43,812 bases of DNA from the NCBI GenBank assembly GCA_017619935.1, contig JAFZRJ010000038.1:1-43812 (forward strand), given 5' to 3'. A program made the translations under genes and the position numbers. Below are positions 800 through 43,488 of the stretch, piece by piece (position 1 is the stretch's first letter; the number at the start of each line of letters is the position of its first letter). A model generated the notes under the pieces. The model had not been told where the DNA came from. It did not search any database and was given only the letters and a program-made list of their open reading frames with translations. The stretch is from Muribaculaceae bacterium (GTDB taxonomy: Bacteria; Bacteroidota; Bacteroidia; Bacteroidales; Muribaculaceae).

Positions 800-1750
800 T
801 TATTGGAGGATTTTTTGCTCGATGTTGTAGCGGGGACGGTCTTTGACCTCGATGTAGATTTTGCCGATGTATTCGCCCACGATGCCGAGACCCACCAGCA
901 CGCATCCACCGACGAACCATATCGACAGGATGAGTGACGACCATCCGCTCACGGTGCGACCGCTGAAATAAGCGACCAACACATAGATGAGTATTCCGAG
1001 TGCAATGAGCGTAAACAATATCCCGAGTGTGAACACCATGCGCACGGGTTTGATGCTGAACGACGTGATGCCGTCGACAGCAAAACCGAGCATCTTGCCC
1101 AGAGGGTACTTGCTTTCGCCTGCAAGGCGTGGGTTGCGGTCGTAATAGACCGTGTCGCTCTTGTATCCCACCAGCGGGACGATGCCGCGCAGGAACAGGT
1201 TGCGCTCGCGGTAGCATAGCAGTTGTTTGACGGCGCGACGGCTCATCAGTCGGTAGTCGGCGTGGTTATAGACACTTTTCACTCCGAGGCCTCGCATGAG
1301 TTTGTAAAAGGCGAGCGCCGTGTTGCGTTTGAACCATGTGTCGCTTTTCCGCTCACGTCTCACACCATAAACGATGTCGCATCCTTGCTGGTATTTCTCA
1401 ATCATTTGCCCGATGACCGAGATATCGTCCTGCAGGTCGGCATCCACGGTGACGATGATGTCGGCCTTTTCGCACGCCGTTTCCATTCCCGCGAGCAATG
1501 CGTTTTGGTGCCCCACGTTGCCGGCGAGTTTCACACCGCACACCTCGTGGTGGGCTTGGGTGTGTTGCTCAATCAGTTGCCAGGTGGCGTCGGTCGAACC
1601 GTCGTTGACGTAGAGCAAGCGGCTTTCTTCCGCCACCATGTCGGTGGCGACCAGTTTCTTAAGCAATTCAACGATGCTGCCGGTGGTGGCGGGCAGCACT
1701 TCTTGTTCATTATAGCAGGGAACGACAATATATAAAACGTCTTTTTTCAT
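800..1750 (-). CDS. family 2 glycosyltransferase, DPM1/GtrB-like (polyprenyl-phosphate glycosyltransferase)
   Basis: 316 aa, the usual length for GtrB/ArnC/DPM1-type enzymes. These move a sugar from a nucleotide sugar to a polyprenyl phosphate on the cytoplasmic face of the inner membrane. The GT-A domain shows VPCYNEQE (residues 9-16), YVNDGSTD (about 47-54) and the metal-binding VDADLQDD (about 99-106). Two transmembrane helices (about 233-255 and 268-290) follow, as in GtrB. It has its own promoter but lies 86 bases after the HAD/GT-C fusion, so its lipid-linked sugar could feed that GT-C enzyme; this is inference. The transferred sugar cannot be read from the sequence. Confidence 0.92.
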   Translation of the reverse strand: MKKDVLYIVVPCYNEQEVLPATTGSIVELLKKLVATDMVAEESRLLYVNDGSTDATWQLIEQHTQAHHEVCGVKLAGNVGHQNALLAGMETACEKADIIVTVDADLQDDISVIGQMIEKYQQGCDIVYGVRRERKSDTWFKRNTALAFYKLMRGLGVKSVYNHADYRLMSRRAVKQLLCYRERNLFLRGIVPLVGYKSDTVYYDRNPRLAGESKYPLGKMLGFAVDGITSFSIKPVRMVFTLGILFTLIALGILIYVLVAYFSGRTVSGWSSLILSIWFVGGCVLVGLGIVGEYIGKIYIEVKDRPRYNIEQKILQ

Positions 1751-1782
1751 AAGTCAAACGTGAACACATCGTTACATCGTGG

Positions 1783-1813
1783 CAAAGTTAGCCATTTTCG
1801 GTGTATTGTCAAA
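1783..1813 (-). promoter_or_regulatory. promoter of the GtrB-like gene
   Basis: Minus strand TTTG (1813-1810), 19 bases, TAACTTTG (1790-1783): a full match to the Bacteroidetes promoter. Predicted start near 1776, giving a leader of about 26 bases. Confidence 0.75.
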
Positions 1814-1836
1814 ATAATATGGGTGGGTTCGGTCCA

Positions 1837-4152
1837 TTATCGGTGTGGGGCGCAGAGCACGAAGTGGGTGTCTTCGTAGATGACTTGGTAATGATGCTCG
1901 TCAAGGAACTGGTTGAGCACTTTGAGTTTGCTGTTGTCTTGATAGGCATTCTGAAGCCCGTAGTCGGTAAGGTAGGTCTCGCTGGGTTCGCCCCATTCGG
2001 TGCCGATGGTGTTGAACTTCTGTCGCAGCACCAGGGGCAGTTCACCCTGCTTTGCCGCCGTTTGCAATTTCTGTTGCAGCATGCCGGCGCTCAGTTGTTC
2101 CACCCACGAGCAACCCAAGTAGGGGCGTGTGCGCGTGAGATAATTGAGGGTGGGGATGCTGCCGTAAGCCATGAGCGTGGTGCCGGGTTTGACGTATGGC
2201 TGGATGCCCTCCAGCACCGTGTTGAGCACTTGCGCGCGCTGGGCCGTGGTGAAGATGCACGTTGCACGGTCGTTGTTCACCGTGCATCGCTTGTCGAGCA
2301 GCGAACCGCCGTCGAAATAGGCACCGCCGGTGACCATTCTGACAGCGCAAACGACCAGGAACGCGATGGGGAAATACACGCGAACACGTTTAATCCACCA
2401 CGTTGCCGCCACAGGTGCCGCCGACCACGCGATCACGCTGCCGTTGTTGTAGGCACCATCGCTGCCCAGTGGCATCACCAGCATCATGCCCAGTCCCAGA
2501 ATGGCCATCCAGGTGAGGGCGTGCCCCTTGTCTTTAACGATGACGGCGATGCACCCTGCCATGCACATCACCCACAACGGCTGCAAGGGGTGCATACGTG
2601 CCACAAACCACACGAACAGCGCCAGCGCGGCGACTTTCACCGCCAATTTCAGCCACCGGTTGGATATAAAGATGTGTGCCAACCAATAGACTGTCACCGG
2701 CACGGCAAGTTTGACGGCTGTCCACAGCTCGGTGCCGTAGAAGCGGAACTGGGTCATCATCATCTGGCCCGTGGTGTGCGAGGCCGTTCCGCTGGTGTCG
2801 GCAGCAATGGCCCGTAGGTCGTTGATCACATTCTTAAAGGCGGTGAAGTGTTCCTGTGGCATCATCCACAGCACAAGTCCTACGGCTGCTGCCGCACAGC
2901 ACAAGAACAAAGCGCTGGACATGAGTGCTTTGCCCGGTTTGGTGTCTCCTATGTGGTATCGTGACTGTATGAACGCCCGAATGGGGGGAATAAGCGCCAT
3001 CGACAAGCCCAGCACATTGGGGATGCGAACCAGAATGTTGAGCCCAGCGAGTGCTCCGGCGAGTGCCACAAGGCCGATTTTGTCTTTTTCCATCCCTCGC
3101 CACAGGGCGGTGATGGCCGCCACGTAGAACACTACCGTGCACAGGTCGTAACTCAGCGTGTAGGGTGGGGCAATGAACGACACCACCACCAATGCGCAAC
3201 CCAGCGCTATGGCCCGCTCGTCAATGTGCCGTCGCAAGGCGTAGTAAAGGATGACGGCGGCGCTGGTGTTGAAAGCCACGCCCAACAGACGCATACCCAA
3301 CATGCCCATGCCAGGGAACAGGTGTTGGAAGGCGCCTCCTATCACTCCGCTCAGGTAGTACATGAAATTATACTCCACGCTACTGGGGTGTGAGAAGATG
3401 TTATCGTAGAACGTGAGATAGAAACCGGCGTCGGCCACATCCATCCCGAAGAAAACGCCCAACATCTGGTATAAAACCAACACGCAAAGCGTCGTCCAAA
3501 AAATCGTACCGGAATGTCGTTTCCACCACGAGAGTTGGTGCTGAGGCGTTTCGAAATTGCGGTAATAAATTTCGGTGGCATGGCTCAGCATCACTTTGTC
3601 GCCACTGGTGTCGCCGTAAGCTGCATGAAGGCCTTTCTGCACCTCAGGCACAGCCTCCACCATACGTCGCCACTTCTCCTCGCCGTTGCAGTTGGGGGTG
3701 GCGAATTGGCCCGTGAGTCGGCCTTGAGCGTCTATCTCCATTTCGGTGCCGATGATTCGCGCGTCACCTAGTCCAATTTGGTCAAGCCAAGGTCGCACCC
3801 ATGGGCTCATGCTGGCGGTGACCACCAGCACCGAGTCGTGTCGGCTTAACGCTTGACGCAGGGATTCCGCTGGCTCAGGGCGTGTGTAGTCGGCGCAATG
3901 CGCGCTCGCAAATTGGGCGCAAAGGTCGCTGAACTCGTCTTGGGGCATCCCCTCGAAGAAGTGGCGCATGAGCCGTTCTTTGGCGGGTCCGCCGTCGATG
4001 ATGTGCAGTTTGTAGAGCAAAATCCACGGCAGACAGCGCACTACGCCCCACGCGAACCGCCACTTGCCAAAGCAATATTTGAGCAATAACGGCAAGGTGT
4101 CGTGCGTGGTAATGGTGCCGTCGAAGTCCGAAGCAATGATTTTGCTGGCCAT
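1837..4152 (-). CDS. HAD-IB phosphatase fused to a GT-C-type membrane glycosyltransferase
   Basis: 771 aa. Residues 1-200 are a SerB-like HAD phosphatase: nucleophile motif SDFDGT (D9, D11), motif II VVTAS (110-114) and acidic motif GDTSGD (180-185). From about residue 215 the protein has about ten hydrophobic segments. The first is followed by MDVADAG (237-243), placed where GT-C enzymes carry their catalytic acidic loop motif. A soluble C-terminal part of about 130 aa follows. The chosen ATG overlaps the stop of the upstream UbiA gene by one base (TAATG). A longer reading frame exists upstream but would run 17 codons into that gene. Inference: the HAD domain removes the 5-phosphate from polyprenyl-phosphate phosphoribose made by the neighbour, and the GT-C part uses a lipid-linked sugar outside the inner membrane. 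Confidence 0.85.
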   Translation of the reverse strand: MASKIIASDFDGTITTHDTLPLLLKYCFGKWRFAWGVVRCLPWILLYKLHIIDGGPAKERLMRHFFEGMPQDEFSDLCAQFASAHCADYTRPEPAESLRQALSRHDSVLVVTASMSPWVRPWLDQIGLGDARIIGTEMEIDAQGRLTGQFATPNCNGEEKWRRMVEAVPEVQKGLHAAYGDTSGDKVMLSHATEIYYRNFETPQHQLSWWKRHSGTIFWTTLCVLVLYQMLGVFFGMDVADAGFYLTFYDNIFSHPSSVEYNFMYYLSGVIGGAFQHLFPGMGMLGMRLLGVAFNTSAAVILYYALRRHIDERAIALGCALVVVSFIAPPYTLSYDLCTVVFYVAAITALWRGMEKDKIGLVALAGALAGLNILVRIPNVLGLSMALIPPIRAFIQSRYHIGDTKPGKALMSSALFLCCAAAAVGLVLWMMPQEHFTAFKNVINDLRAIAADTSGTASHTTGQMMMTQFRFYGTELWTAVKLAVPVTVYWLAHIFISNRWLKLAVKVAALALFVWFVARMHPLQPLWVMCMAGCIAVIVKDKGHALTWMAILGLGMMLVMPLGSDGAYNNGSVIAWSAAPVAATWWIKRVRVYFPIAFLVVCAVRMVTGGAYFDGGSLLDKRCTVNNDRATCIFTTAQRAQVLNTVLEGIQPYVKPGTTLMAYGSIPTLNYLTRTRPYLGCSWVEQLSAGMLQQKLQTAAKQGELPLVLRQKFNTIGTEWGEPSETYLTDYGLQNAYQDNSKLKVLNQFLDEHHYQVIYEDTHFVLCAPHR

Positions 4153-5024
4153 TAGCAATAGATGATAATCAGGAACGTCACAATCCATGCCGCCAGGCAG
4201 CACTGAATGAAATGGTCGCGCATGAGCACTTGTGTGGGGCTTCCGCTGCGCTCATTCACCACGGTGAGTTGCATATATCTCAGTATTCCGGCCAGCACAA
4301 AGACGGTGGTGCAGTAAGTGTAGTGGCTGTTGAACCGTCGAGCGACGTCATCGCTCATGGTGTAAATCATGTAGGCCACGATGGTGATGGTGGCTACCAT
4401 GGTAAGCGCCATGTTGATGAATTCCAGGTTATAGTTGGCCGCGCCCCGGCGAACGACTTTTCCGCTCTCGACTTGCAGTATCACGTCGTCACGTCGCTTG
4501 CCCAGCACGAGGAACAGCGCCAGCAGGAACGTCATGACCACAATCCACTGCGATGCCATGATGTCGCCGGCCATGGCACCACCCACCACGCGCATGACAT
4601 AGAAACTGGCCACGATGAGCACATCGACCAGTCCCACATGCTTGAGCCAGCAGCTGTAGAGCACATTCAGTGCCATGTATCCTATCAAGAGCCACAGCAG
4701 ATGGATAGGCAGCAGCCATGCGGTGAGGCCTATCGCCAGCAAGGCACAGACGGCGGCGATGCACCAGGCCGTGCCTACGCTCACAGCGCCCGAGGCAATG
4801 GGCCGCATACGCTTGACGGGATGCAAAGCGTCGGCTTCACGGTCGAGGATGTCGTTGAGGCAATATACCGCACTGGCAGCCAACGAGAAGGCGATGGCGC
4901 ACACGAGCGTGAGTGCCAGCACATGCGTGTCGGTGAGCTTCTTGTCGAAAAAGAGCGGCAAGAACACGAAAGCGTTCTTGAGCCATTGCTTCACACGCAA
5001 CAATTTAATCACAGGTGGTAACAT
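4152..5024 (-). CDS. UbiA-family polyprenyl-phosphate phosphoribosyltransferase (DPPR synthase-like)
   Basis: 290 aa, polytopic. Motif 1 is NDILDREAD (57-65) followed by HPVKRMRPIASG. A second conserved block is YSCWLKH..LVDV..VASFYVMRVVGG (about 123-149), and GKRRDD ends at about 180. These match the branch of UbiA that includes mycobacterial Rv3806c, which joins PRPP to a polyprenyl phosphate, rather than the MenA or UbiA quinone enzymes. The product would be polyprenyl-phosphate 5-phosphoribose, the precursor of lipid-linked ribofuranose or arabinofuranose. I chose the ATG at 5024 because the promoter -7 box lies just beyond it; a longer frame would read through that promoter. The gene is translationally coupled to the HAD/GT-C gene. 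Confidence 0.85.
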   Translation of the reverse strand: MLPPVIKLLRVKQWLKNAFVFLPLFFDKKLTDTHVLALTLVCAIAFSLAASAVYCLNDILDREADALHPVKRMRPIASGAVSVGTAWCIAAVCALLAIGLTAWLLPIHLLWLLIGYMALNVLYSCWLKHVGLVDVLIVASFYVMRVVGGAMAGDIMASQWIVVMTFLLALFLVLGKRRDDVILQVESGKVVRRGAANYNLEFINMALTMVATITIVAYMIYTMSDDVARRFNSHYTYCTTVFVLAGILRYMQLTVVNERSGSPTQVLMRDHFIQCCLAAWIVTFLIIIYC

Positions 5025-5050
5025 GACACTGTTTTTGCAAATATGACTTG

Positions 5051-5082
5051 CAAAAATACTATAAAAATCTAATAGTGCCAAA
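5051..5082 (-). promoter_or_regulatory. promoter of the UbiA-HAD/GT-C operon
   Basis: Minus strand TTTG (5082-5079), 20 bases, TATTTTTG (5058-5051). Full consensus. Predicted start near 5044, which fixes the start codon at 5024. Confidence 0.75.
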
Positions 5083-20023: not shown

Positions 20024-22006
20024 ATGAAGACAGAATCTAGTTCACGCATCAAGCTTGACCAGGTGTCACGCCGTTACTATTGTCCCGAAAGCGAGATAGA
20101 ATTGGCCTCGCTCACACGGTTTGAGCGAGTACACACGCAAGTGACACGAACCCGTGCCGAGGGTGCCGCCGACGCGGCGCTCGATGTGGCCCGAATCATT
20201 GAACGCAACGTGAAGGAAAAAGGGCGTTGCGTGATTGGTTTCGGCGCTGGAAAGTGCGCGTTGGACGTTTACGACGAGCTGGTGAAACTCTATTTTGCCG
20301 ATAAGGTGAGTTTTGCCGATGTCGTGGCTTTCACCATCAGTGAACTGGGCCTGGGGGTTGTGCCCGACGACAGTGAGCAGAGTACCATGACCCGCTTGAA
20401 TCGTCGCTTATTTAATAAGGTGGATATTGAGCCGGGCAACGTGCACACGTTCAGCCGCGAGGCTACCAAAGAGAACGTGCACCGCTTGTGCAAAGCTTAT
20501 GAGCAGGAAATCGATGAAAACGGAGGGCTTGACCTTGTGGTGTGCGAACTCACCAAGAATGGTTCGCTGGCCTTCAATGAGCCTGGTTCGACCATGAACT
20601 CTACCTGTCGCCTGATGTTGCTGGGCAGCGATTCGCGCGTGAGGGTCGCCGAAGCGTTCCAGTGCGAAGATGCTCCTGTCACTGCCGTGACACTAGGCAT
20701 CAACAACATCCTCTCGGCACAACACATCATAGGTGTGGCATGGGGCGAGGACAGTGCCAACGCTGTTTACGACACCATCGAAGGACGTGTGACCGACCTC
20801 GTGCCGTCGTCTTTCCTGCAGATGCATCACAACGTGAAACTAGTGGTGGACCTGGAGGCCGCGTCGCGCCTGACCCGCATCAACTACCCATGGAAGGTGA
20901 CGTCTTGCGAGTGGAACCCTTATCTCATTCGCCGTGCCATCGTGTGGCTCTGCCAGCAAACGGGCAAGCCCATCCTGAAACTCACCAATAAGGATTATAA
21001 CGACAACGGCTTGAACGAATTGGTGGCACTCTACGGCTCGGCCTATAATGTGAACATTATCACTTTCAACGACTTACAGCACACTATTACTGGTTGGCCC
21101 GGCGGTAAGCCCGATGCCGATGATTCCAACCGTCCCGAGCGTGCAAAGCCTTATCCGAAGCGTGTGTTGGCCTTCAGCCCGCATCCCGACGATGTGGTGG
21201 TGTCGATGGGCGGCACCCTGCGCCGACTGGTGCAGCAGGGCCATGACGTCCATGTCGCTTTCCAGACCCCCGGCGACGAGACCGTCAGCGATGAGGACTT
21301 GATGCGCACCCTCATGCTGAACGAGAAAATTGCGGCCCACAATGGCCTTCTCAAGGCTGAGCATCAACACCTCAATCAGGAAATCAGGGATGCAATGACG
21401 GCGAAGAAGCCCGGTGATCCCGACCTTGAACTGGCTCGCTATGTGAAAGGGCAGATTTTCACTTGCGAAGGCATCATGTCGTGTGGATATTTGGGTGTGG
21501 ACCGCAACCACATTCGGGAGATGGAAATGCCGTTTTATGTCAAGAATCAGAATGGCAATGGCCGTGTTACCGAAGAAGACATTGAAATGGTGGTGAAGTT
21601 GCTGGAAGAATTGGAGCCGCATCAGATATTTGTGGCCGATGATTTGAGCGACCCTCGTGGCATACATGTGTTGGCTTCGGGTGCCGTGCTGGAGGCCATC
21701 GACCGCCTGCGCGACCGCCCGTTCATGCGCGACTGCCGCGTGTGGCTGTACAGGGGACAGTGGGGGCAGTGGGATATCGACCGTGTGGAGATGGCAGTAC
21801 CCATGAGTCCCGAAGAGTTCCGCGTGAAGCGTGACGCTATTCTCAAGCACCAGTCGCAAATCCACGACGCACCATTCCGTGACGATGCCGACGGGCATCT
21901 GAGTTGGCAGCGCAGCATCGACCGTAACCGCGCCATGGCAGAGCAATATAGCCGCCTAGGGCTGGCATGCTATGAGGCCATCGAGGCATTTGTTCAATGG
22001 AAGTAA
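20024..22006 (+). CDS. NagB-like domain fused to PIG-L deacetylase-like domain
   Basis: 660 aa. Residues about 30-290 resemble glucosamine-6-phosphate deaminase (NagB). Residues about 380-655 are a PIG-L/LmbE-type N-acetylglucosaminyl deacetylase. The arrangement is known in Bacteroides as a putative deaminase-like protein. In the NagB part, the catalytic FNMDEY is FTISEL (103-108) and the loop NDGHIAFNEP reads KNGSLAFNEP (178-187), so the residues equivalent to E. coli D72, D141 and H143 are replaced; only the final Glu remains. The PIG-L part keeps its metal motif PHPDD (about 386-390) and a later His (GIHVLA, about 547). I infer an inactive or altered NagB module acting as a sugar-phosphate binding part. 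Lies 73 bases after the YgcG gene. Confidence 0.85.
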   Translation: MKTESSSRIKLDQVSRRYYCPESEIELASLTRFERVHTQVTRTRAEGAADAALDVARIIERNVKEKGRCVIGFGAGKCALDVYDELVKLYFADKVSFADVVAFTISELGLGVVPDDSEQSTMTRLNRRLFNKVDIEPGNVHTFSREATKENVHRLCKAYEQEIDENGGLDLVVCELTKNGSLAFNEPGSTMNSTCRLMLLGSDSRVRVAEAFQCEDAPVTAVTLGINNILSAQHIIGVAWGEDSANAVYDTIEGRVTDLVPSSFLQMHHNVKLVVDLEAASRLTRINYPWKVTSCEWNPYLIRRAIVWLCQQTGKPILKLTNKDYNDNGLNELVALYGSAYNVNIITFNDLQHTITGWPGGKPDADDSNRPERAKPYPKRVLAFSPHPDDVVVSMGGTLRRLVQQGHDVHVAFQTPGDETVSDEDLMRTLMLNEKIAAHNGLLKAEHQHLNQEIRDAMTAKKPGDPDLELARYVKGQIFTCEGIMSCGYLGVDRNHIREMEMPFYVKNQNGNGRVTEEDIEMVVKLLEELEPHQIFVADDLSDPRGIHVLASGAVLEAIDRLRDRPFMRDCRVWLYRGQWGQWDIDRVEMAVPMSPEEFRVKRDAILKHQSQIHDAPFRDDADGHLSWQRSIDRNRAMAEQYSRLGLACYEAIEAFVQWK

Positions 22007-30622: not shown

Positions 30623-32131
30623 ATGGCTAATCTTAAATCACTGGCTAAAGATACGGCAATCTATGGATTGAGCAGCATCATTGGACGCTTTCTCAATTAT
30701 CTGCTCGTGCCGCTATATACCGCCAAGATGTCGGCAGCTTCGGGCGATTATGGTATCGTCACCAATGTCTATGCCTACACGGCCCTGTTGCTCGCTATTC
30801 TCACCTACGGCATGGAGACCACCTTCTTCCGCTTTGCCAACAAAAGCGAGGAGAATCCTCATCGGGTCTATTCCACCACGTTGTTTACCGTGGGCATGAC
30901 CTCGTTGCTGTTTGTGGTGTTGGTGTGGCTCAACATCGGATGGATAGCCCCAGCCATGGGACTGGCCTACACTGCTCATCCCGACTACATCATTGTCATG
31001 GCGGCGGTGGTGGCCCTTGATGCTTTTCAGGCCATTATTTTCGCTTACTTGCGCTACAAGAAGCGTCCCATCAAGTTTGCCTCGCTGAAACTGCTGTTCA
31101 TTTTCCTGAATATCGGTTTGAACCTGCTCTACTTCGTGGCATTGCCTGCCCTTTACAAGTCGCATCCGGGGGCTGTGAGTTGGATTTATTCGCCATCGGT
31201 GGGCGTGGGATATGTATTCTACCTGAATTTGATGTGCACTCTTGTTGTGATGCTGTGTATGTACCGCGAACTGGCGGCCGCCTCGTGGACATGGGACAAG
31301 TCATTGCTCCGACGGATGTTCTCCTACAGTTGGCCCATTCTCATCTTGAGTGTGGCGGGCGTCATCAACCAGTCGGCATCACAAATTATTTTCCCGTGGG
31401 TGTATCCTGGCGATGAGACCACCACTGCATCGCAGTTGGGCATTTATGGCGCCGCCATCAAGATAGCCATGATCATGGCGCTCATCACGCAGGCATTCCG
31501 CTATGCCTATGAGCCGTTTGTCTTCGGCAAGAGCCGCAACAAGGCCGATGAGGCCGAGAGCAAACTCACGCAAGCCGAGGCCATGAAATATTTCCTCATG
31601 TTCACGCTCGTTGCCTACCTGGCCGTGCTGGCTGGAATGGACATCCTCAAGTATATCATCGCACCCGACTACTGGGTGGGATTGCGCGTGGTGCCCATTG
31701 TTATGGCGGCCGAAATCATGATGGGCATTTATTTCAACCTTTCGTTTTGGTATAAACTCACCGACAAGACCTTGTGGGGTGCTTTGTTCTCAGGAGTGGG
31801 ATGCCTGATGCTGATTTTGGTGAATGTGATCTTTGTACCTCATTATGGTTACATGGCTTGCGCGTGGGCGGGTGTGGCCGCCTATGGCACCGCCATGCTG
31901 CTGAGTTATTTCACGGGTCAGAAATACTACCCCATGCCTTATCCGCTGCGCGATATGGCCATTTATGTGGTGGTGACTGCCATTCTCGGTGCCGGGATGA
32001 TGCTTGTTGACACTGGCAACACTTGGCTTAACCTTGTTTGGCGCATCTTCTTGTTCTTGTTGTTCGTGGGTGTCATCATCAAGCGTGAAGGCATCATTGA
32101 CCTCATCCTTCGCAGAAAAACCGTACATTAA
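30623..32131 (+). CDS. polysaccharide/oligosaccharide flippase (Wzx/MATE-like)
   Basis: 502 aa, 12-14 membrane helices. It begins NLKSLAKDTAIYGLSSIIGR, followed by NYLLVPLYT, a common opening of Bacteroidetes polysaccharide-biosynthesis flippases of the MOP superfamily, which turn lipid-linked glycans across the inner membrane. A basic loop RRMFSYSWPILILSVAGVINQ (split here) marks the start of the second half (about residue 235). It sits directly after ruvB, an order I know from other Bacteroidales. The exact substrate is not readable; the polyprenyl-sugar genes at 800-5024 are too far away to link it. Confidence 0.9.
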   Translation: MANLKSLAKDTAIYGLSSIIGRFLNYLLVPLYTAKMSAASGDYGIVTNVYAYTALLLAILTYGMETTFFRFANKSEENPHRVYSTTLFTVGMTSLLFVVLVWLNIGWIAPAMGLAYTAHPDYIIVMAAVVALDAFQAIIFAYLRYKKRPIKFASLKLLFIFLNIGLNLLYFVALPALYKSHPGAVSWIYSPSVGVGYVFYLNLMCTLVVMLCMYRELAAASWTWDKSLLRRMFSYSWPILILSVAGVINQSASQIIFPWVYPGDETTTASQLGIYGAAIKIAMIMALITQAFRYAYEPFVFGKSRNKADEAESKLTQAEAMKYFLMFTLVAYLAVLAGMDILKYIIAPDYWVGLRVVPIVMAAEIMMGIYFNLSFWYKLTDKTLWGALFSGVGCLMLILVNVIFVPHYGYMACAWAGVAAYGTAMLLSYFTGQKYYPMPYPLRDMAIYVVVTAILGAGMMLVDTGNTWLNLVWRIFLFLLFVGVIIKREGIIDLILRRKTVH

Positions 32132-35180: not shown

Positions 35181-38100
35181 TTATTTCACTACCTTCGAGG
35201 TGGAGACTTTACCATCGGTGTAACGTGTCACCACGATGTTCACGCCGTTGAACGGACGGTCGCTGCGGTGACCGGCCACATCGTAGTAGGTCACGCTCTC
35301 CACGTTGCCGTAAACTTGCATGTCGTTGATTCCGGTAAGGGGCGAATGTCCGTCCGACAGCGTAGCGCCCTTCATCATCCAACCAGAGTCGCCTTCGGCA
35401 CGGCGAGGAGCGCCGGCGGCAGGAGTCTCGGGAGCCGGAGCGGGAATCAGCACACCGTCAAGCGTGTAGATGTTGCCTACGGTGGGTTCACCAGTCATCG
35501 ACTCGGTATCTACCAGCAATTCGCCTCTGAGACCGGCACCGTTTATACCGTCACCGGTGGGAACCACGAATAGTCCGTTACCGTCATATTGTGCCCATTT
35601 CACTGTTGCCAACTCATTGGGCACGGGCTGTACGAAGAAGTAGGTCTCTCCGTTGGAGCCGGTTTGTGTGCGTCCGCCGAAGGCGGCCACGATGTAGGTG
35701 TTGGTAGCGAGAGTGAAGCCTTCACCCTCGGTGGCAATCTGCGGATTGACGGCAGCGGTGAACGTGCGTGTTTCGGTGTTGAGCGTGCCCACCACCGTGC
35801 TGATGAGGTCGTTAGCATGATAACTGCTGGCATCCTCCACGTTGATAGCCACCCAGTTGTTGTGAGCATATTGGTCATAGCTCTGGCCGCCGGAATAGCA
35901 GCGAGCCATGTAGTCAATCCAACCCTCTTCGGGAGCCTGCGGGGTGGCACCGCCGTTGTTGTCGGCGACGTAAAGCACGTTCTCTTCAGTGTCGGCATAG
36001 GCCACCTTCAGGTTGTCGGCCACCTTGTAGGGCTCTCCGTTAGTGGCGGAGCTAAGCGTGCTGGCCAGTGTTGCGCCCTTGAAGAACTTGCCCCAGATGG
36101 GGTCAGCCATATAGGCCAACTTGTTGGCTGGTAATGCGGCATCACCGCTAAGGGTAAGCGTACAGTTATTATAGACGGCATCCTCAAATTCGCTGGCCAC
36201 CGTTGGAGGTGTCGCGGCACTGATGCTGATGCTCGTCAGCGTAGTCACACCCTTGAACGCATCCTCACCGATGGTGGTCAAAGCACCGCCAAGAGTGATG
36301 GACTGAACTTTTGTGTTCTCAAAAGCGTGAGATTCAATGGTTGTCACCTTAGTACTTGAACCAAAATCGACGGTTTTTAAATTTTGGTTGCCATAGAAAG
36401 AATAAGCTCCAATGACTTTAACATTTCCAACAATACCCGTAATGGTCGAAAGTTTTACACCCGGTTGCTGCAGGTTTTTGCGAGCGGCACCAGGGAAAGT
36501 TAGCAATTTTAAACCATCCTCTGTACCTAAAACAGGAATTGAAGACGTTTGATCAGACGGGAAAGTAACACTAGTAATACTGTTCCCGTTTAAGTTGGTG
36601 AAATATCCGGTTACAAAAGCATTGATACCATGAGCATTGTTGTTAATGAAAGCATCGGACGCAATTTCCATCACATGATAGAAGCGTATCATACAAGCGT
36701 TAACGCCATCAAATGCACGGCTCTTGATGTAGCGGTAATTGTTCAACCCCTCATTAATCTTACATGTAGTTTGTCCGCCATAACCATAAAAATATTCACC
36801 TGCCATTGAAGCTTCCCCAAAACCAACGACAGTATAAGATTTGCCTTCTCTGCTGTTTGTCACTGTTGCCTTGAAATCGGAAGCACTGATGACAGAAGAT
36901 GAAGTAGAATACTTGTTGCCATTCGGGTTGGCAATGATTTCACATTCTGAAGAATTGATGGCTTGATAATAGAATTTGCCATCTTGGAACGGTTCCTTGT
37001 CGTAGGTTTCAACCGTGAGTTGGGTCATGTCGTAGTTGAGCGTGAGGGTGTATTCCTCACCAGCGGCGATTTTGAAGGAATTGGTGCCACTCACCACGTT
37101 TTCGGTGGCAGAATACACGCCTTCGGCAAACTCAATGAGTTTCTGGTCGCTGTCGGCACCCAGGCGTGAGCCGGAGATATCGTCCCAACTGCCCAAAGTC
37201 TTGGTGAAGCTGAAGAAACTGTAGCCCTCCTCGCCGGCGTTCTCGCTTTCCTGAGCGGTGAACTCCAGCGTGTAGGTCTGTGAAGTGCCATCGTAGGTGA
37301 ACTGCATCGAGCCGTCGGCGGGATTCCATCCCTGGTTGGTGCCCAGCAGATACACGTTGCCGTTGCTGGGCCACTCGCCGGTGACGGTCATCGTGCGGCT
37401 TTCGCCATCGGCGGCACTCAACGTGATGGTCCAGTCGCCGGCAGGCAGTTTGAAATAATCCAGCGTGCCGTCGGCAGCCACCGCGATGGGAGTACCAATC
37501 TCGGTGCGCAGCACGTCGTGGTTGCCGCTGGTGCCGAAGTAAGTCATCGGGTAGTTGCCGCTCTCAAGCTTGCGGGCGAAGTTGAAATACACGTCGGCGT
37601 CGTTCACCAGATTGTAGGTATAAGCGCCGCCAGTGGCAGCGGTCATTTCATGCGTCTCGCCGCCATAGTTCATATAGACCTTGGTTGCGGGCCAAGTTCC
37701 GGCGATGGTGAGTGTGGGTGTTGTCGCGACGTTGGCCACCGTGAGTGTCCAGGTGCCTACAGGCACGGCAAACAGCGTGCTGCTGCCAGCGGTGAGGTTG
37801 ATGGCATTGCCCAAATCACTTTGCGCGGTGACACGTTCGCCAGCGCCCGTTCCCAGTGCGGTGAAAGGCATGGCGCCGCTCACCAGTCGGGTGCTGAGGT
37901 TGAATCGGTAGAGGCCGTCGTTGTCGAGGTCCTCAGTGGCGACAGCCAGCGTATAGGTGTAAGTCTGATTGTCGCTGTTGTAGGTCATAGCATCATTGCC
38001 CACCTTCACCTCGCTGCTCGGCCAGGTGCCTGTGACTGTCATTGTGGCGGCGGTGTTCTCGTCCAGCAGATTGGCAATGGTGATGGTCCAGGTACCCTGT

Positions 38101-39905
38101 GGCAAGCGATAAGCGACCGTACTGCCGTAATTCGACATCGCCAGGGCGGTGTTCAAGTCCGCGTTGCCAATGTTGAAATTGTCATTACCACTGACATTTA
38201 CCGTATGTGTCTCGTCAAGCACAGCACCGAAGCGGTCGCCATCGGAGGGCCAATTATTTGCGTCGGCACCCAAAGCGCGGCTGAAGCTGAAGTAGCTATA
38301 ACCATCTGCTTCGCCCGCTGTTGTCACGGTGGCGGTATAATTGTGCGTGGCGGGGTCGTAGGTCATGGACACTCCAGTGTCACCAGCCCAACCATTGCCG
38401 TTAACTTGTCCCATAATATAAATATTGGGTATATACACAAATATGGCGTTGACCGTCACATTGCTGGCGGGCATGGTGAACGTATAGGTGCCGTTTGCAC
38501 TGGGTGTGGTGCTGACAGGGTTGTTGTCGGCATCGGTCACGGTGAGTGTGCCCAAATCATAGTTGGGGCTGGGGGTCACCGTCAGGGTGACGGTGGTGCC
38601 TGCCGAAGCTTCAGCCATATCAGCGGTTACCGCACCATGAGTCATACTGCCGATGGTAATGGTTGGAATCAAAGAGAACGTTGCGTTCACATTTACGTTG
38701 CTGGCGGGCATCAAGAAAGTGTAGGTGCCGTTTGCGCCGGGTGTAGTGCTGACAGGGTTGTTATCGGCATCGGTCACGGTGAGTGTGGCTAGCTCATAAT
38801 GAGTGTCAGGAGCGATGGTCAGTGTCACGGTGGTGCCGTTGTCAGCAGTTGCAGGGCCGGTTACAGCGCCGTTGGTCATACTACCGTATGTAATATTGTA
38901 GGTTTCCAATGGAGCACCGCCGCCCGTGAAGAAACGGCCCCAGTTGGTGTTGGCTTTAAATGCCGCCTTACTGTTGTCGCTACAGTTCCAAGTCACATTA
39001 TCGAGCAGACGAGTATAAACATCATCTTCAAACACCACGTCTGCCAAATCGTCGTTCCATTCGCAATTCACAGTCAGCGAGGTAATGCCTGTTGTGCCAG
39101 TGAAAGCGTTAGCCGCTATAGATGTCACTGTTGCAGGAATGGTAAGCGTTCTGAGGGCAGTCATGTTTACAAGAGCTTCCTCCTCGATTGTTATCACACT
39201 GCCTAGGTTAAGGGTGGCCAAATGTGAATTGCCATAAAAAGCGTAAGCACCGATAGTTTGTATTTGACTAGGTATAGTGTAATTGGTGGCTATACTTCCA
39301 CTTGGCAAAGAAGTGGTTTTTAACTGAGCACTGCCAGTTACAGCTACATAATTGCCGGGGAAAGCCACTAATTTGGTCTTTTCAACATTTGTAAGGATGT
39401 GGTTAAGATTGCCATAACCTACAGATTGCTCATTTTCCCGAAAATCAAACCATTTAATTTTATTATTGCGAAATGCCTTAGGACTAATATCACTCATTTG
39501 AGCATTAATACGAAAAACAGAAATAATAGAACCATTTCTGGTCGCTCCATTAAAGGCATCCGCTTTAATTGTTGTAAATCCATTTGACAATCCAGCTGAA
39601 CAATTTGTTGGGTGACCGATACTTGCATTCTTAAACGCGTTTTCTCCAACTGATACAATAGTATAGCCATTTGCGGTTGTTGGAGTTATCCACATACTAC
39701 TTTGTGTCATATTATAATGAGTAACTCCATCAGGGTTAGGAATCAGCTCCGCAGTCATGTCCGCCTCACTAAGCACACGAGCAAACATAGTTTGACCGCT
39801 GTAGTAACCGTATGTGAATGAGAATACATCTCCATCAGCGGCGCTGGCGCTGAAGCCGAGAGAGGCTAGCAGCACCGCAATCAATAATGTAAATTTCTTT
39901 TTCAT
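35181..39905 (-). CDS. giant BspA-like modular surface protein
   Basis: 1574 aa from the ATG at 39905 (signal peptide MKKKFTLLIAVLLASLGFSA); a longer frame adds 31 non-signal residues. Modules in order: LRR_5/BspA-like repeats (about 80-330; e.g. IQTIGAYAFYGN); two InlB_B-type bacterial repeats of about 80 aa (335-493; each ends YTF.MPASNV.VNA.F); four SusE/CBM-like beta modules (about 493-967; openings IYIMGQ, VYMNYG, VYLLGTNQGW); a second LRR_5 block (about 970-1290; VKVIGAYSFYGN); a unique region; and the shared C-terminal tail (SDRPFNGVNI ... KVVK). Probably cell-surface adhesion or glycan binding. The LRR_5 parts are visibly AT-richer than the rest, as if modules had separate histories. 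Flanked by direct repeats. Confidence 0.82.
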   Translation of the reverse strand: MKKKFTLLIAVLLASLGFSASAADGDVFSFTYGYYSGQTMFARVLSEADMTAELIPNPDGVTHYNMTQSSMWITPTTANGYTIVSVGENAFKNASIGHPTNCSAGLSNGFTTIKADAFNGATRNGSIISVFRINAQMSDISPKAFRNNKIKWFDFRENEQSVGYGNLNHILTNVEKTKLVAFPGNYVAVTGSAQLKTTSLPSGSIATNYTIPSQIQTIGAYAFYGNSHLATLNLGSVITIEEEALVNMTALRTLTIPATVTSIAANAFTGTTGITSLTVNCEWNDDLADVVFEDDVYTRLLDNVTWNCSDNSKAAFKANTNWGRFFTGGGAPLETYNITYGSMTNGAVTGPATADNGTTVTLTIAPDTHYELATLTVTDADNNPVSTTPGANGTYTFLMPASNVNVNATFSLIPTITIGSMTHGAVTADMAEASAGTTVTLTVTPSPNYDLGTLTVTDADNNPVSTTPSANGTYTFTMPASNVTVNAIFVYIPNIYIMGQVNGNGWAGDTGVSMTYDPATHNYTATVTTAGEADGYSYFSFSRALGADANNWPSDGDRFGAVLDETHTVNVSGNDNFNIGNADLNTALAMSNYGSTVAYRLPQGTWTITIANLLDENTAATMTVTGTWPSSEVKVGNDAMTYNSDNQTYTYTLAVATEDLDNDGLYRFNLSTRLVSGAMPFTALGTGAGERVTAQSDLGNAINLTAGSSTLFAVPVGTWTLTVANVATTPTLTIAGTWPATKVYMNYGGETHEMTAATGGAYTYNLVNDADVYFNFARKLESGNYPMTYFGTSGNHDVLRTEIGTPIAVAADGTLDYFKLPAGDWTITLSAADGESRTMTVTGEWPSNGNVYLLGTNQGWNPADGSMQFTYDGTSQTYTLEFTAQESENAGEEGYSFFSFTKTLGSWDDISGSRLGADSDQKLIEFAEGVYSATENVVSGTNSFKIAAGEEYTLTLNYDMTQLTVETYDKEPFQDGKFYYQAINSSECEIIANPNGNKYSTSSSVISASDFKATVTNSREGKSYTVVGFGEASMAGEYFYGYGGQTTCKINEGLNNYRYIKSRAFDGVNACMIRFYHVMEIASDAFINNNAHGINAFVTGYFTNLNGNSITSVTFPSDQTSSIPVLGTEDGLKLLTFPGAARKNLQQPGVKLSTITGIVGNVKVIGAYSFYGNQNLKTVDFGSSTKVTTIESHAFENTKVQSITLGGALTTIGEDAFKGVTTLTSISISAATPPTVASEFEDAVYNNCTLTLSGDAALPANKLAYMADPIWGKFFKGATLASTLSSATNGEPYKVADNLKVAYADTEENVLYVADNNGGATPQAPEEGWIDYMARCYSGGQSYDQYAHNNWVAINVEDASSYHANDLISTVVGTLNTETRTFTAAVNPQIATEGEGFTLATNTYIVAAFGGRTQTGSNGETYFFVQPVPNELATVKWAQYDGNGLFVVPTGDGINGAGLRGELLVDTESMTGEPTVGNIYTLDGVLIPAPAPETPAAGAPRRAEGDSGWMMKGATLSDGHSPLTGINDMQVYGNVESVTYYDVAGHRSDRPFNGVNIVVTRYTDGKVSTSKVVK

Positions 39906-40065
39906 TTTGATAAAAATTGGTTTATAAATGGTTATTTCGTTTTTTAAGTTTGTCGGAAAAATATGATGGCAAATTATATTTCGCTGCAAAGTAAGCACAA
40001 AAACTACACATTTGCAAGGATATAACTAGAAAAAACATGTGGTGTGAAGTGCTGAAAGCACAAAC
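39906..40065. other. leader region of the giant gene
   Basis: AT-rich, no gene. No exact TAnnTTTG on the minus strand; the closest is TTACTTTG near 39990 with one base less spacing. A GTGC/GCAC hairpin of the repeat type appears near 40047-40061. Confidence 0.4.
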
Positions 40066-40470: not shown

Positions 40471-42390
40471 TTATTTGATGACCTTGTAGGTCTTGTCGCC
40501 GTCGATGACGATGTTCACGCCCTTGAACGGACGGTCGCTCACCTGGCCCATGACGTTTACATACTTCACGCCCTTGTTGCTGCTGACATTGAGGTCAGCA
40601 ACACCGGTAACGACTTCCTGTTCCATGGTCACGTTGATGTTGATGGGTGCGGCAGGCATGTTGAAGGTGTAGACATTGTCTTCGCCATTCACGTTCACAT
40701 CGGCGCGACGGGGCATTCCGGCGGGTCCGTCGGGCTCGGCGGTGTCCACGGTCTCAACGGTCACGCCGGCCACCTTGTAGCCCTCTTCGGGAGTGACGGT
40801 GATGGTCACCTCGGTGCCTTCGGCCACGAGAGCGCCGCTCTCGATGGGTGTGCCATCCACGCTCACTTCAATGGTGGCGTGATCAATCTCGGCGCTGAAG
40901 GTGACGGCGCTTTCCACCACGACGGGAGGAATCTCCTCGAACTCGGCGGTGACGGTCACGTTGTCGGCGGGCATGGTGAACTGGTTGTTCTCATTGACTT
41001 CCACCAAAAGCTCGAGCGTCTCGGGAGTGACGGTAATGCTCTTGAGCTGGTAGCCCTCGGCTGGGGTGACGGTCAGGGTCACGGTCTCGCCTTCCTCAGC
41101 CTCAATCATGTCAGCTTCCACAGTACCGTTCTGGATATTCTCATCGATGGTGATGGCGTACTTCGTGGGAGGAATCAACGAGAAGGTGGCTGTCACGGTC
41201 ACGTTGTCGGCGGGCATGGTGAACTGGTTGTCATTGACTTCCACTATGAGCTCGAGCGTCTCGGGATTGACGGTGATGGTCTCAAGCTGGTAGCCCTCGG
41301 CAGGAGTGACGGTCAGGGTCACGGTCTCGCTTTCCTCAGCCTCAGCCTTGTCGGCTGTCACGGTTCCGTTCTGGATGCCGTCAGCAATGGTGACGGTGTA
41401 CTTCGTGGGGGTAGGGGGAGCTGCCCAGAAGCGGCCCCAATTCTCGTCAGCCTGATAATCAGCGAGGCTTCCCTCAGGAACTGTAATTTTACCGCTCTCG
41501 CGAATGGAAGCATAGACGGCATCATCAAACACGCAGCCAGCGGGAGGCGTGGTGGCGTTGCAAGTGATAGAGAAGATGGCCGACGCTCCTTCAAAAGCAG
41601 TAGGATCTACTGTGGTGAGCGTAGCCGGCAGCGTGAGTTGCTCCACCACGCTGTTCTTAAAAGCATATTCCTGAATCTCTACTACATTACCAAGGTCAAG
41701 TTGCGTGTAACCCGAGTTGCCGTGAAAGGCATGCGGACCCACGATGGTGAGTTCGCTGGCAAGGGTGAGCTTGTTCGCGCATTTATAGCCACCGCTTCCA
41801 TTGCCGAGAATTTTTCCCTTGCCGCCAATAGCCACCAAGGTGTTGCCGTCTTTACAAGGTACATAGCAGTTGCCTGTATTGTACTGAATTCTGGATGCTG
41901 TGCAAGCAACTTGTTTGAAATGTTCGGTTCCACCGCTTACATTGATGGTCCCAACAATCTCATTGTCAACAAATGCAAGTGGGGACAACGTCAAAAGGGT
42001 TCCGTAAAAACGGATGTTTGAATCAGCGTCATCTACTTTTCCCGATTTTACGCCTTGAAATGCATAGTCGCTGATGTAGCGTAGGCTAGAAGGGAGGTTG
42101 GTGATGTTTTGGGTTGGGAACTGTGCATTGCGGAACGCACCCTCACCGATACCCACTACATTGTAGGTCACACCGCCGATGGTAACGGTGTTGTAGTTGC
42201 CGAAAATGGAGCGGTCGGTGATGGTGTAGGTACCACTGGGTTTGGGAGCAATCTCAACCTCGTTGACATCGCCTTCAGCAACGATGTTGAAATAGAACGT
42301 GCCGTCGGTGATGACATCACCCACAGCGGCAGTAGCACTGAAGCCCATCCAGGCCATCAACGCAGCAAAGAGTAAAGTTAATTTTTTCAT
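40471..42390 (-). CDS. BspA-like surface protein with bacterial repeats
   Basis: 639 aa. Signal peptide at residues 1-22 (MKKLTLLFAALMAWMGFSATA). Residues about 30-320 are LRR_5/BspA-like repeats (VVGIGEGAFRN, YISDYAFQG, IVGPHAFHGN, IQEYAFKNS). After NWGRFWAAPP come two near-identical InlB_B-like repeats of about 75 aa (each containing ETVTLTVTPAEGYQL and FTMPADNVTVTA.F) and a third, more divergent one (about 495-590). The tail SDRPFKGVNIVIDG...KVIK closes the protein. It shares signal, LRR_5, repeats, tail, 3' terminator and 3' repeat with the giant gene, so the two look like products of an old duplication followed by module gain or loss. Confidence 0.85.
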   Translation of the reverse strand: MKKLTLLFAALMAWMGFSATAAVGDVITDGTFYFNIVAEGDVNEVEIAPKPSGTYTITDRSIFGNYNTVTIGGVTYNVVGIGEGAFRNAQFPTQNITNLPSSLRYISDYAFQGVKSGKVDDADSNIRFYGTLLTLSPLAFVDNEIVGTINVSGGTEHFKQVACTASRIQYNTGNCYVPCKDGNTLVAIGGKGKILGNGSGGYKCANKLTLASELTIVGPHAFHGNSGYTQLDLGNVVEIQEYAFKNSVVEQLTLPATLTTVDPTAFEGASAIFSITCNATTPPAGCVFDDAVYASIRESGKITVPEGSLADYQADENWGRFWAAPPTPTKYTVTIADGIQNGTVTADKAEAEESETVTLTVTPAEGYQLETITVNPETLELIVEVNDNQFTMPADNVTVTATFSLIPPTKYAITIDENIQNGTVEADMIEAEEGETVTLTVTPAEGYQLKSITVTPETLELLVEVNENNQFTMPADNVTVTAEFEEIPPVVVESAVTFSAEIDHATIEVSVDGTPIESGALVAEGTEVTITVTPEEGYKVAGVTVETVDTAEPDGPAGMPRRADVNVNGEDNVYTFNMPAAPININVTMEQEVVTGVADLNVSSNKGVKYVNVMGQVSDRPFKGVNIVIDGDKTYKVIK

Positions 42391-42594: not shown

Positions 42595-43488
42595 ATGAAA
42601 AGGATAAAGGTTTGGATTGAATGTATGCGGTTGCGCACCTTGCCGGTGTCGTTATCGGGTGTGGTGATGGCTATTGCCTTAACGTGGTGGTTGGGCAAGT
42701 TCCAATGGGTGCCGGCCATGTTATGCCTGGTTTTTGCGTTGTTGGCGCAAGTGGTGTCAAACTTTGCCAACGAGTATTACGACTACTTGCGTGGAGCCGA
42801 TAAGGTGGGTCGCGTAGGGCCTCGTCGCGGAGTGACTGAGGGCGACATCCAGCCTCGCACATTGCGTAACGTCACCTTTGCCACGCTAGTCGTGGATGCT
42901 GTGGTGGGGCTGTGTCTGATTCCTTATGGCGGTTGGTGGATGTTGCCGTTGGGCGTCGTCATTGCCCTGGCCGCGCTGGCCTATAGTGCTGGCCCTTATC
43001 CACTCAGTTACCATGGGCTGGGTGAGTTGGCGGTGTTCATCTTCTTCGGTCTTGTACCGGTGGTGTTCACATTCTACGTGCAGGCGCGTTGTTTCAACCC
43101 GTTGGTGCTGTTGGCGGGAATGTCGGTGGGATTGATGGCGGTGAATGTGCTGCTGGTCAATAACTATCGTGATGTGGACGATGACCGTGAAGCCAACAAG
43201 CGCACATCGGTGGTGATTTTCGGCCGTAAGCCGGCTGCCGCAGCCTATCTGATCAACGGTTATGTGGCCATGTCGTTGCTCACTCCTCTGTGGTTCTTTG
43301 CTCTGATATCCAACAAATTGTCGGTTTGGACGTTGTTCATCCCGCTGTTGTATCTGCTGTTGCACACGGTCACATGGTATCGCCTGATGCACCGTGACGG
43401 AGCCGCTCTGAACCCATTGCTTGGAGCCACAGCCCGCAATATGCTCATCTTCACCATTCTTATGGCTGTGGCGTTGGTTATCGGGTGA
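42595..43488 (+). CDS. menA: 1,4-dihydroxy-2-naphthoate polyprenyltransferase
   Basis: 297 aa, normal for MenA. It attaches the polyprenyl chain to dihydroxynaphthoate in menaquinone synthesis at the inner membrane. UbiA-fold with aspartate-rich motifs NFANEYYDYLRGAD (about 57-70) and NNYRDVDDDREANKRT (about 188-203), plus about eight helices. The opening WIECMRLRTLPVSLSGVV is characteristic of MenA. No other men genes are in the window. Note that the UbiA-family gene at 4152 has different motifs and a different role. Confidence 0.96.
   Translation: MKRIKVWIECMRLRTLPVSLSGVVMAIALTWWLGKFQWVPAMLCLVFALLAQVVSNFANEYYDYLRGADKVGRVGPRRGVTEGDIQPRTLRNVTFATLVVDAVVGLCLIPYGGWWMLPLGVVIALAALAYSAGPYPLSYHGLGELAVFIFFGLVPVVFTFYVQARCFNPLVLLAGMSVGLMAVNVLLVNNYRDVDDDREANKRTSVVIFGRKPAAAAYLINGYVAMSLLTPLWFFALISNKLSVWTLFIPLLYLLLHTVTWYRLMHRDGAALNPLLGATARNMLIFTILMAVALVIG

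Follow-up and report, generated by a model that had tools for sequence, protein, structure and literature searches.

A stretch of 43,812 nucleotides from a Muribaculaceae bacterium (GenBank assembly GCA_017619935.1, contig JAFZRJ010000038.1; hereafter the window) encodes on its minus strand a UbiA-family protein of the decaprenyl-phosphate phosphoribose (DPPR) synthase type and, directly downstream, a protein that joins a predicted HAD phosphatase to a GT-C glycosyltransferase fold. The two genes are best read as a real unit, well conserved within its lineage, in which a known pathway is rewired in a lineage-specific manner. With moderate confidence, we regard them as a two-gene unit for pentofuranose addition, a decoration system of patchy distribution whose phosphatase is fused not to the synthase but to the final transferase. 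The gene order is dusB (upstream), UbiA, the HAD-GT-C fusion and then a GtrB-like GT2 gene. The core features are the following.

4152..5024, minus strand: predicted UbiA-family polyprenyl-phosphate phosphoribosyltransferase, DPPR-synthase type, 290 amino acids from ATG
1837..4152, minus strand: HAD-GT-C fusion protein, 771 amino acids
3553..4152, minus strand: HAD-IB phosphatase domain of the fusion, residues 1-200, with D9, D11, T13, S114, K160, D181 and D185
1840..3537, minus strand: GT-C-fold membrane glycosyltransferase domain of the fusion, residues 206-771, with the invariant D241 and the conserved H435, H459 and D565

The UbiA protein matches PF01040 (E 2.4e-24), and its nearest solved structure is 8j8j, a DPPR synthase (E 1.1e-40). 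It scores 209.9 and 203.8 bits against the NCBIfam DPPR-synthase equivalogs NF008977 and NF008978 (curated cut-offs 234 and 207), which places it outside that equivalog and within the wider DPPR-synthase type only. The scores fall to 184 bits for NF006088, which we take to be a model of HAD-UbiA fusions, to 159 for a third DPPR model and to 54 for the next non-DPPR model. A tree of 46 rows splits 41 Bacteroidales sequences, together with 8j8j as the one DPPR synthase reference, at 100/99 from four long-branched outgroups (the MenA of the window and E. coli MenA, UbiA and CyoE). The initial annotation had proposed a DPPR-synthase type from motifs, and had named a grouping with quinone or haem prenyltransferases as the outcome that would speak against it; the protein groups with 8j8j instead. 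The residues N57, D58, D61, D65, K16, N17, R74, K176 and R177 are identical in all 41 sequences and in 8j8j. The first four correspond, by spacing and through 8j8j, to residues tested in ORF15 of Citrobacter youngae O1, as given in the main text of PMC11127046 (Kelly et al. 2024). The R/E pair of loop IV described there for ORF15 and Rv3806c is present as R177 and D180 (E in 8j8j).

An assignment of the UbiA protein as a prenyltransferase for quinones, haem or other aromatic compounds, to which the HAD-GT-C protein would be unrelated, draws on the shared superfamily, the long branches of the tree and the NDxxDxxxD residues, which the aligned quinone enzymes largely share. The model scores and the structural match contradict it, as do K16 and K176, common to UbiA and 8j8j and absent from the four quinone and haem enzymes aligned, and the separate MenA encoded at 42595-43488. 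We consider this explanation very improbable; judged by its sequence, the window UbiA is of the DPPR-synthase type.

The HAD domain of the fusion matches PF12710 (residues 7-189, E 6.6e-31) and displays the fold and catalytic motifs of a HAD-IB phosphatase. D9, D11 and the GDTSGD motif (residues 180-185) stand at the positions named in the initial annotation for a SerB-like domain. Loss of the active site across orthologues, which it had raised as a counter-indication, was not seen, six catalytic residues being unchanged in all 16 aligned rows. The remainder of the protein matches PMT_2 (PF13231; residues 275-395, E 8.8e-6) with 26.5 bits, just over the cut-off of 26.1. Its predicted fold is confident and resembles PMT, OST and ArnT, in agreement with the earlier proposal of a GT-C-like half; in the structure comparison, Emb and Aft are not the closest. 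The loop that follows the first membrane helix contains the invariant D241, so that the protein has both the GT-C fold and, as in the GT-C superfamily, an acidic residue in its first extracytoplasmic loop.

A search with the fusion as query recovered 44 related loci, 16 of which carry HAD and GT-C together. UbiA is directly upstream in all 16, with a spacing that ranges from a few overlapping bases to a gap of 133 bases, and synthase, phosphatase and GT-C are thus encoded side by side in each of these loci, the pairing that the initial annotation had proposed to look for. HAD and GT-C form one open frame in 14 of these loci. In the window, the TAA stop of UbiA and the ATG of the fusion gene have one base in common (TAATG, 4154-4150), as first read. 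Among 37 genomes of the genus, ten contain the linked unit (eight fused, two as separate adjacent genes), with UbiA adjacent in every case; seven further genomes contain a UbiA of another branch, and more than one such UbiA was never found in a genome examined in the genus. The genus and locus sets overlap in part (for example, locus L033 is contig C30 of genome G003), and their counts are not additive. Since HAD and UbiA are paired in 25 of 29 genomes, the phosphatase would be expected to act on a lipid-linked ribose 5-phosphate.

In a GT-C tree of 51 rows (without L045 and L046, missed in open reading frame calling), the 17 linked GT-Cs constitute one clade (100/98), within which the split-gene rows L047, L048, G014 and G026 branch outside the 13 fused rows (100/100). 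This topology suggests that linkage preceded fusion, and that the fusion arose once, later. Alignment A1 covers 33 of the 44 loci, omitting L039, which is almost identical to L038, and a further ten loci of the stand-alone kind (L059, L062, L063, L065, L070-L074 and L076; the L074 GT-C is split over two open frames), and alignment A2 covers 27. No HAD-GT-C fusion was found in the other 392 genomes of a sample of the order, in which the genome studied is the sole member of its genus. In one genome of another Bacteroidales family (G446; L197:6100-9408), separate genes for HAD, UbiA and a distantly related GT-C (26 to 28% identical) adjoin one another; this GT-C takes a far-off position in the tree, on a long branch. 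The lineage is one of uncultured gut bacteria, and its named relatives are mostly ruminant-gut assemblies.

The fused gene (in L034, L035, L037-L039 and L041) and many stand-alone GT-C genes (for example L053) adjoin a gene whose product starts with MEGLLQYIW, a DUF2851 protein in the copy scanned. The common neighbour perhaps marks one ancestral site.

The initial annotation had noted that a GtrB-like enzyme follows the other two genes. Three further features bear on its role.

800..1750, minus strand: GtrB/PgfS-like GT2 (PF00535, E 1.9e-25), a neighbour that is probably outside the unit
5051..5082, minus strand: promoter-like site of the Bacteroides type (TTTG-N20-TANNTTTG), 26 nucleotides upstream of the UbiA ATG
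1783..1813, minus strand: promoter-like site of the Bacteroides type, 32 nucleotides upstream of the GtrB-like gene

Both sites were identified with what we take to be the Bacteroides promoter consensus, and the pattern occurs seven times in the window, where 0.61 occurrences would be expected. The UbiA frame could alternatively start at a TTG (4152-5081), which falls within the promoter-like site. With one such site before UbiA and another before the GtrB-like gene, which follows the fusion gene after 86 bases, UbiA and HAD-GT-C appear to belong to one unit, and GtrB to a second, separate transcription unit. The GtrB-like gene was found in none of the other 16 loci that have HAD and GT-C together, within the limits of their flanking sequence; with only 0.3 kb and 1.6 kb downstream, respectively, L033 and L047 carry little weight on this point. 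A role for this gene in the unit is therefore not upheld, nor is GtrB a conserved partner of the GT-C as in GtrABC glucosylation.

What is observed of the unit is its gene structure and linkage, its kinship, the conservation of catalytic residues and the predicted fold; from these we infer all of its activities. At the cytoplasmic face, by homology to DPPR synthase, UbiA would move 5-phosphoribose from phosphoribosyl pyrophosphate (PRPP) to polyprenyl phosphate. In the cytoplasm, the HAD domain would strip off the 5-phosphate, yielding polyprenyl-phosphate-ribofuranose. A flippase, none of which is recognised in the unit, would then turn the lipid over, and in the periplasm the GT-C half, by its fold, linkage and the precedent of Kelly et al., would transfer the ribofuranose, most likely unepimerised, to an envelope glycan. 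A lipid-linked pentose for an envelope glycan, as originally suggested, is supported, in line with the system that the main text of PMC11127046 presents as experimentally shown. One polypeptide could both dephosphorylate and transfer the pentose, as first proposed, but the inferred topology would place the HAD and GT-C steps on opposite sides of the membrane, with a flippase needed between them, and the donor is assigned by linkage.

No flippase was found among the window neighbours scanned (neighbours in other loci were not scanned, and MATE types were not searched genome-wide), and no SMR flippase candidate in the linked-unit genomes. A PF01943 protein at 30623-32131 was considered and set aside; it lies about 26 kb away beside ruvB, and nothing ties it to the unit. 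A bolder and rather doubtful possibility is that the fusion is a trans-membrane coupling device between a cytoplasmic phosphatase and a periplasmic pentofuranosyltransferase, binding the last donor activation to its use. The GT-C half would then be a new ribofuranosyltransferase sequence family, operating with no gene-linked flippase and perhaps recruiting a shared one.

Pentose use by the fused GT-C half would follow from its linkage and from the Kelly precedent. Several observations weaken this assignment. GT-C relatives that stand alone, with 29 to 42% identity to the fusion of the window, are encoded away from UbiA, and a DPPR-type UbiA was found in 5 and not found in 22 of the 27 genomes that carry them (genomes of unstated completeness). 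In two genomes without such a UbiA, G012 and G028, GtrB lies about 6 kb from the stand-alone GT-C. The GT-C family probably serves other donors as well, and because the stand-alone proteins occur mostly in genomes where no such UbiA was found, the donor assignment of the fused half rests on linkage. These data would also be compatible with UbiA and HAD making a lipid-linked ribose while the fused GT-C uses another donor, such as a GtrB-type hexose lipid, the fusion being a by-product of operon packing. GtrB, besides being next door in the window, is encoded at 59% identity or more in 31 of the 37 genus genomes. It was not found at this level in G007 and G016, which both contain the linked unit, and this, together with the missing GtrB at the 16 other loci, speaks against such a donor. 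The linked GT-Cs moreover form a single clade with some fixed differences, exemplified by position 686 (Q in 16 of 16 linked rows, L in 18 of 18 stand-alone rows; other positions, such as 452, are mixed among stand-alone rows), and the same three genes stand in a row in G446. We consider use of another donor unlikely, and retain the two-gene pentofuranose unit as the preferred explanation.

The initial annotation left the sugar as ribofuranose or arabinofuranose. The mycobacterial-type route to arabinofuranose depends on the oxidase DprE1. A gene row in another Bacteroidales genome, L198:6941-10494, encodes UbiA, a FAD oxidase, a short-chain dehydrogenase/reductase (SDR) and HAD, the oxidase and SDR being DprE1/E2-like by order and family. 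The DprE1-like oxidase, with the L198 protein as query (E 1e-6), was found in none of the 37 genus genomes (62 to 100% complete, many of them incomplete), and PF01565 has no match in the genome of the window (66% complete). In a set of 61 genomes, two gave partial matches to the L198 oxidase, in frames of 966 to 996 amino acids that belong to other families. PF04030 was discarded as a weak DprE1 marker: it has no match in the 61 genomes, but the L198 protein itself lacks one, so that this protein was used as the query instead. With no DprE1-like oxidase found, ribofuranose appears likelier than arabinofuranose. Epimerisation of the donor before use, with arabinofuranose or xylofuranose as the added sugar, has a parallel in the oxidase and SDR between UbiA and HAD in L198, and xylo- and arabino- versions are described in the main text of PMC11127046. 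Against it stand the lack of oxidase matches in the genus and of PF01565 in the incomplete genome of the window, although an unlinked SDR epimerase of the ORF13 type was not searched for; we regard an epimerised donor as improbable. The L198 row itself resembles a Bacteroidales unit that would supply lipid-linked arabinofuranose as a donor.

A three-component pentofuranose pathway is already described (Kelly et al. 2024, PMC11127046). According to its main text, the parts in C. youngae O1 are ORF15 (PRP-PPPRS), ORF14 (MATE flippase, proposed) and ORF12 (GT136, a GT-C shown to add the sugar). The Citrobacter UbiA-type synthase, with HAD fused at its N-terminus, makes farnesyl-phosphate-ribose in vitro, and a Pseudomonas syringae candidate carries HAD at the C-terminus. 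The Muribaculaceae unit has the same predicted components, a UbiA-type polyprenyl phosphoribose synthase, a HAD phosphoribose phosphatase and a GT-C transferase, but its HAD is joined to GT-C and not to UbiA, and no flippase or epimerase was recognised in it. No word starting with "fusion", "fused" or "Bacteroid" occurs in that main text, supplements being outside this scope. The initial annotation had not seen the fusion described; the pathway is in print, and no description of a HAD-GT-C fusion was found in the literature searched. The wiring thus looks new, in a pathway of known type.

The mycobacterial arabinan donor pathway (Rv3806c, Rv3807c, DprE1/E2, Emb/Aft) also combines a DPPR-synthase-type UbiA with GT-Cs of comparable fold. 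By contrast, the Muribaculaceae phosphatase is a HAD, a type stated in the main text of PMC11127046 to be unrelated to Rv3807c, the genus genomes lack a detectable DprE1-like oxidase, and the GT-C half is not nearest in fold to Emb/Aft. HAD and UbiA also work together in HAD-UbiA fusions (NF006088; L204, with HAD below cut-off), whereas in the Muribaculaceae unit UbiA has a gene of its own and the transferase carries the HAD. A lipid-phosphate sugar donor is likewise paired with a GT-C transferase in GtrA-GtrB-Gtr O-antigen glucosylation, but the donor synthase here would be UbiA-type, acting from PRPP, rather than GtrB-type. The unit would extend the lipid-linked pentofuranose pathway to a Bacteroidales lineage, with another phosphatase wiring, on the transferase rather than on the synthase as in the main text of PMC11127046. 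Since the fusion ties donor to transferase, its sequence can be used as a marker in the search for unknown transferases and glycans of the pathway, and the unit predicts a testable ribofuranose-decorated envelope glycan in these bacteria.

Other UbiA-HAD loci fit a broad set of such systems in Bacteroidales with varying transferases. Ten polytopic neighbours picked beside UbiA-HAD pairs comprise three PMT_2 proteins (one below cut-off), four DUF6080 (L195:7536-8801, L196:7206-8519, L199:7812-9098 and L207:7677-9089), one DUF6044 (L192:6467-8212) and two without a family. The DUF6044 and DUF6080 proteins may be unrecognised transferases for lipid-linked pentoses. Small SMR/EamA-type proteins adjoin three UbiA-HAD pairs.

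Six genomes of the same genus (L078-L083; e.g. L082:3376-7237) display a second layout, with a membrane protein of 438-477 amino acids (no clear Pfam family in the two scanned), UbiA and HAD. In four of these genomes an acyltransferase-like protein separates UbiA from HAD, with Acyl_transf_3 confirmed in the one scanned, and most of the six units have what are presumably rimP- and nusA-like genes beside them. The HAD and UbiA genes of a seventh genome (G009) lie on separate contigs.

Elsewhere in the window, two large leucine-rich-repeat proteins of the BspA type, which also have InlB B-repeat-like domains, are encoded on the minus strand (35181-39998 and 40471-42390), and a single protein with glucosamine-6-phosphate isomerase-like and PIG-L deacetylase-like domains on the plus strand (20024-22006).
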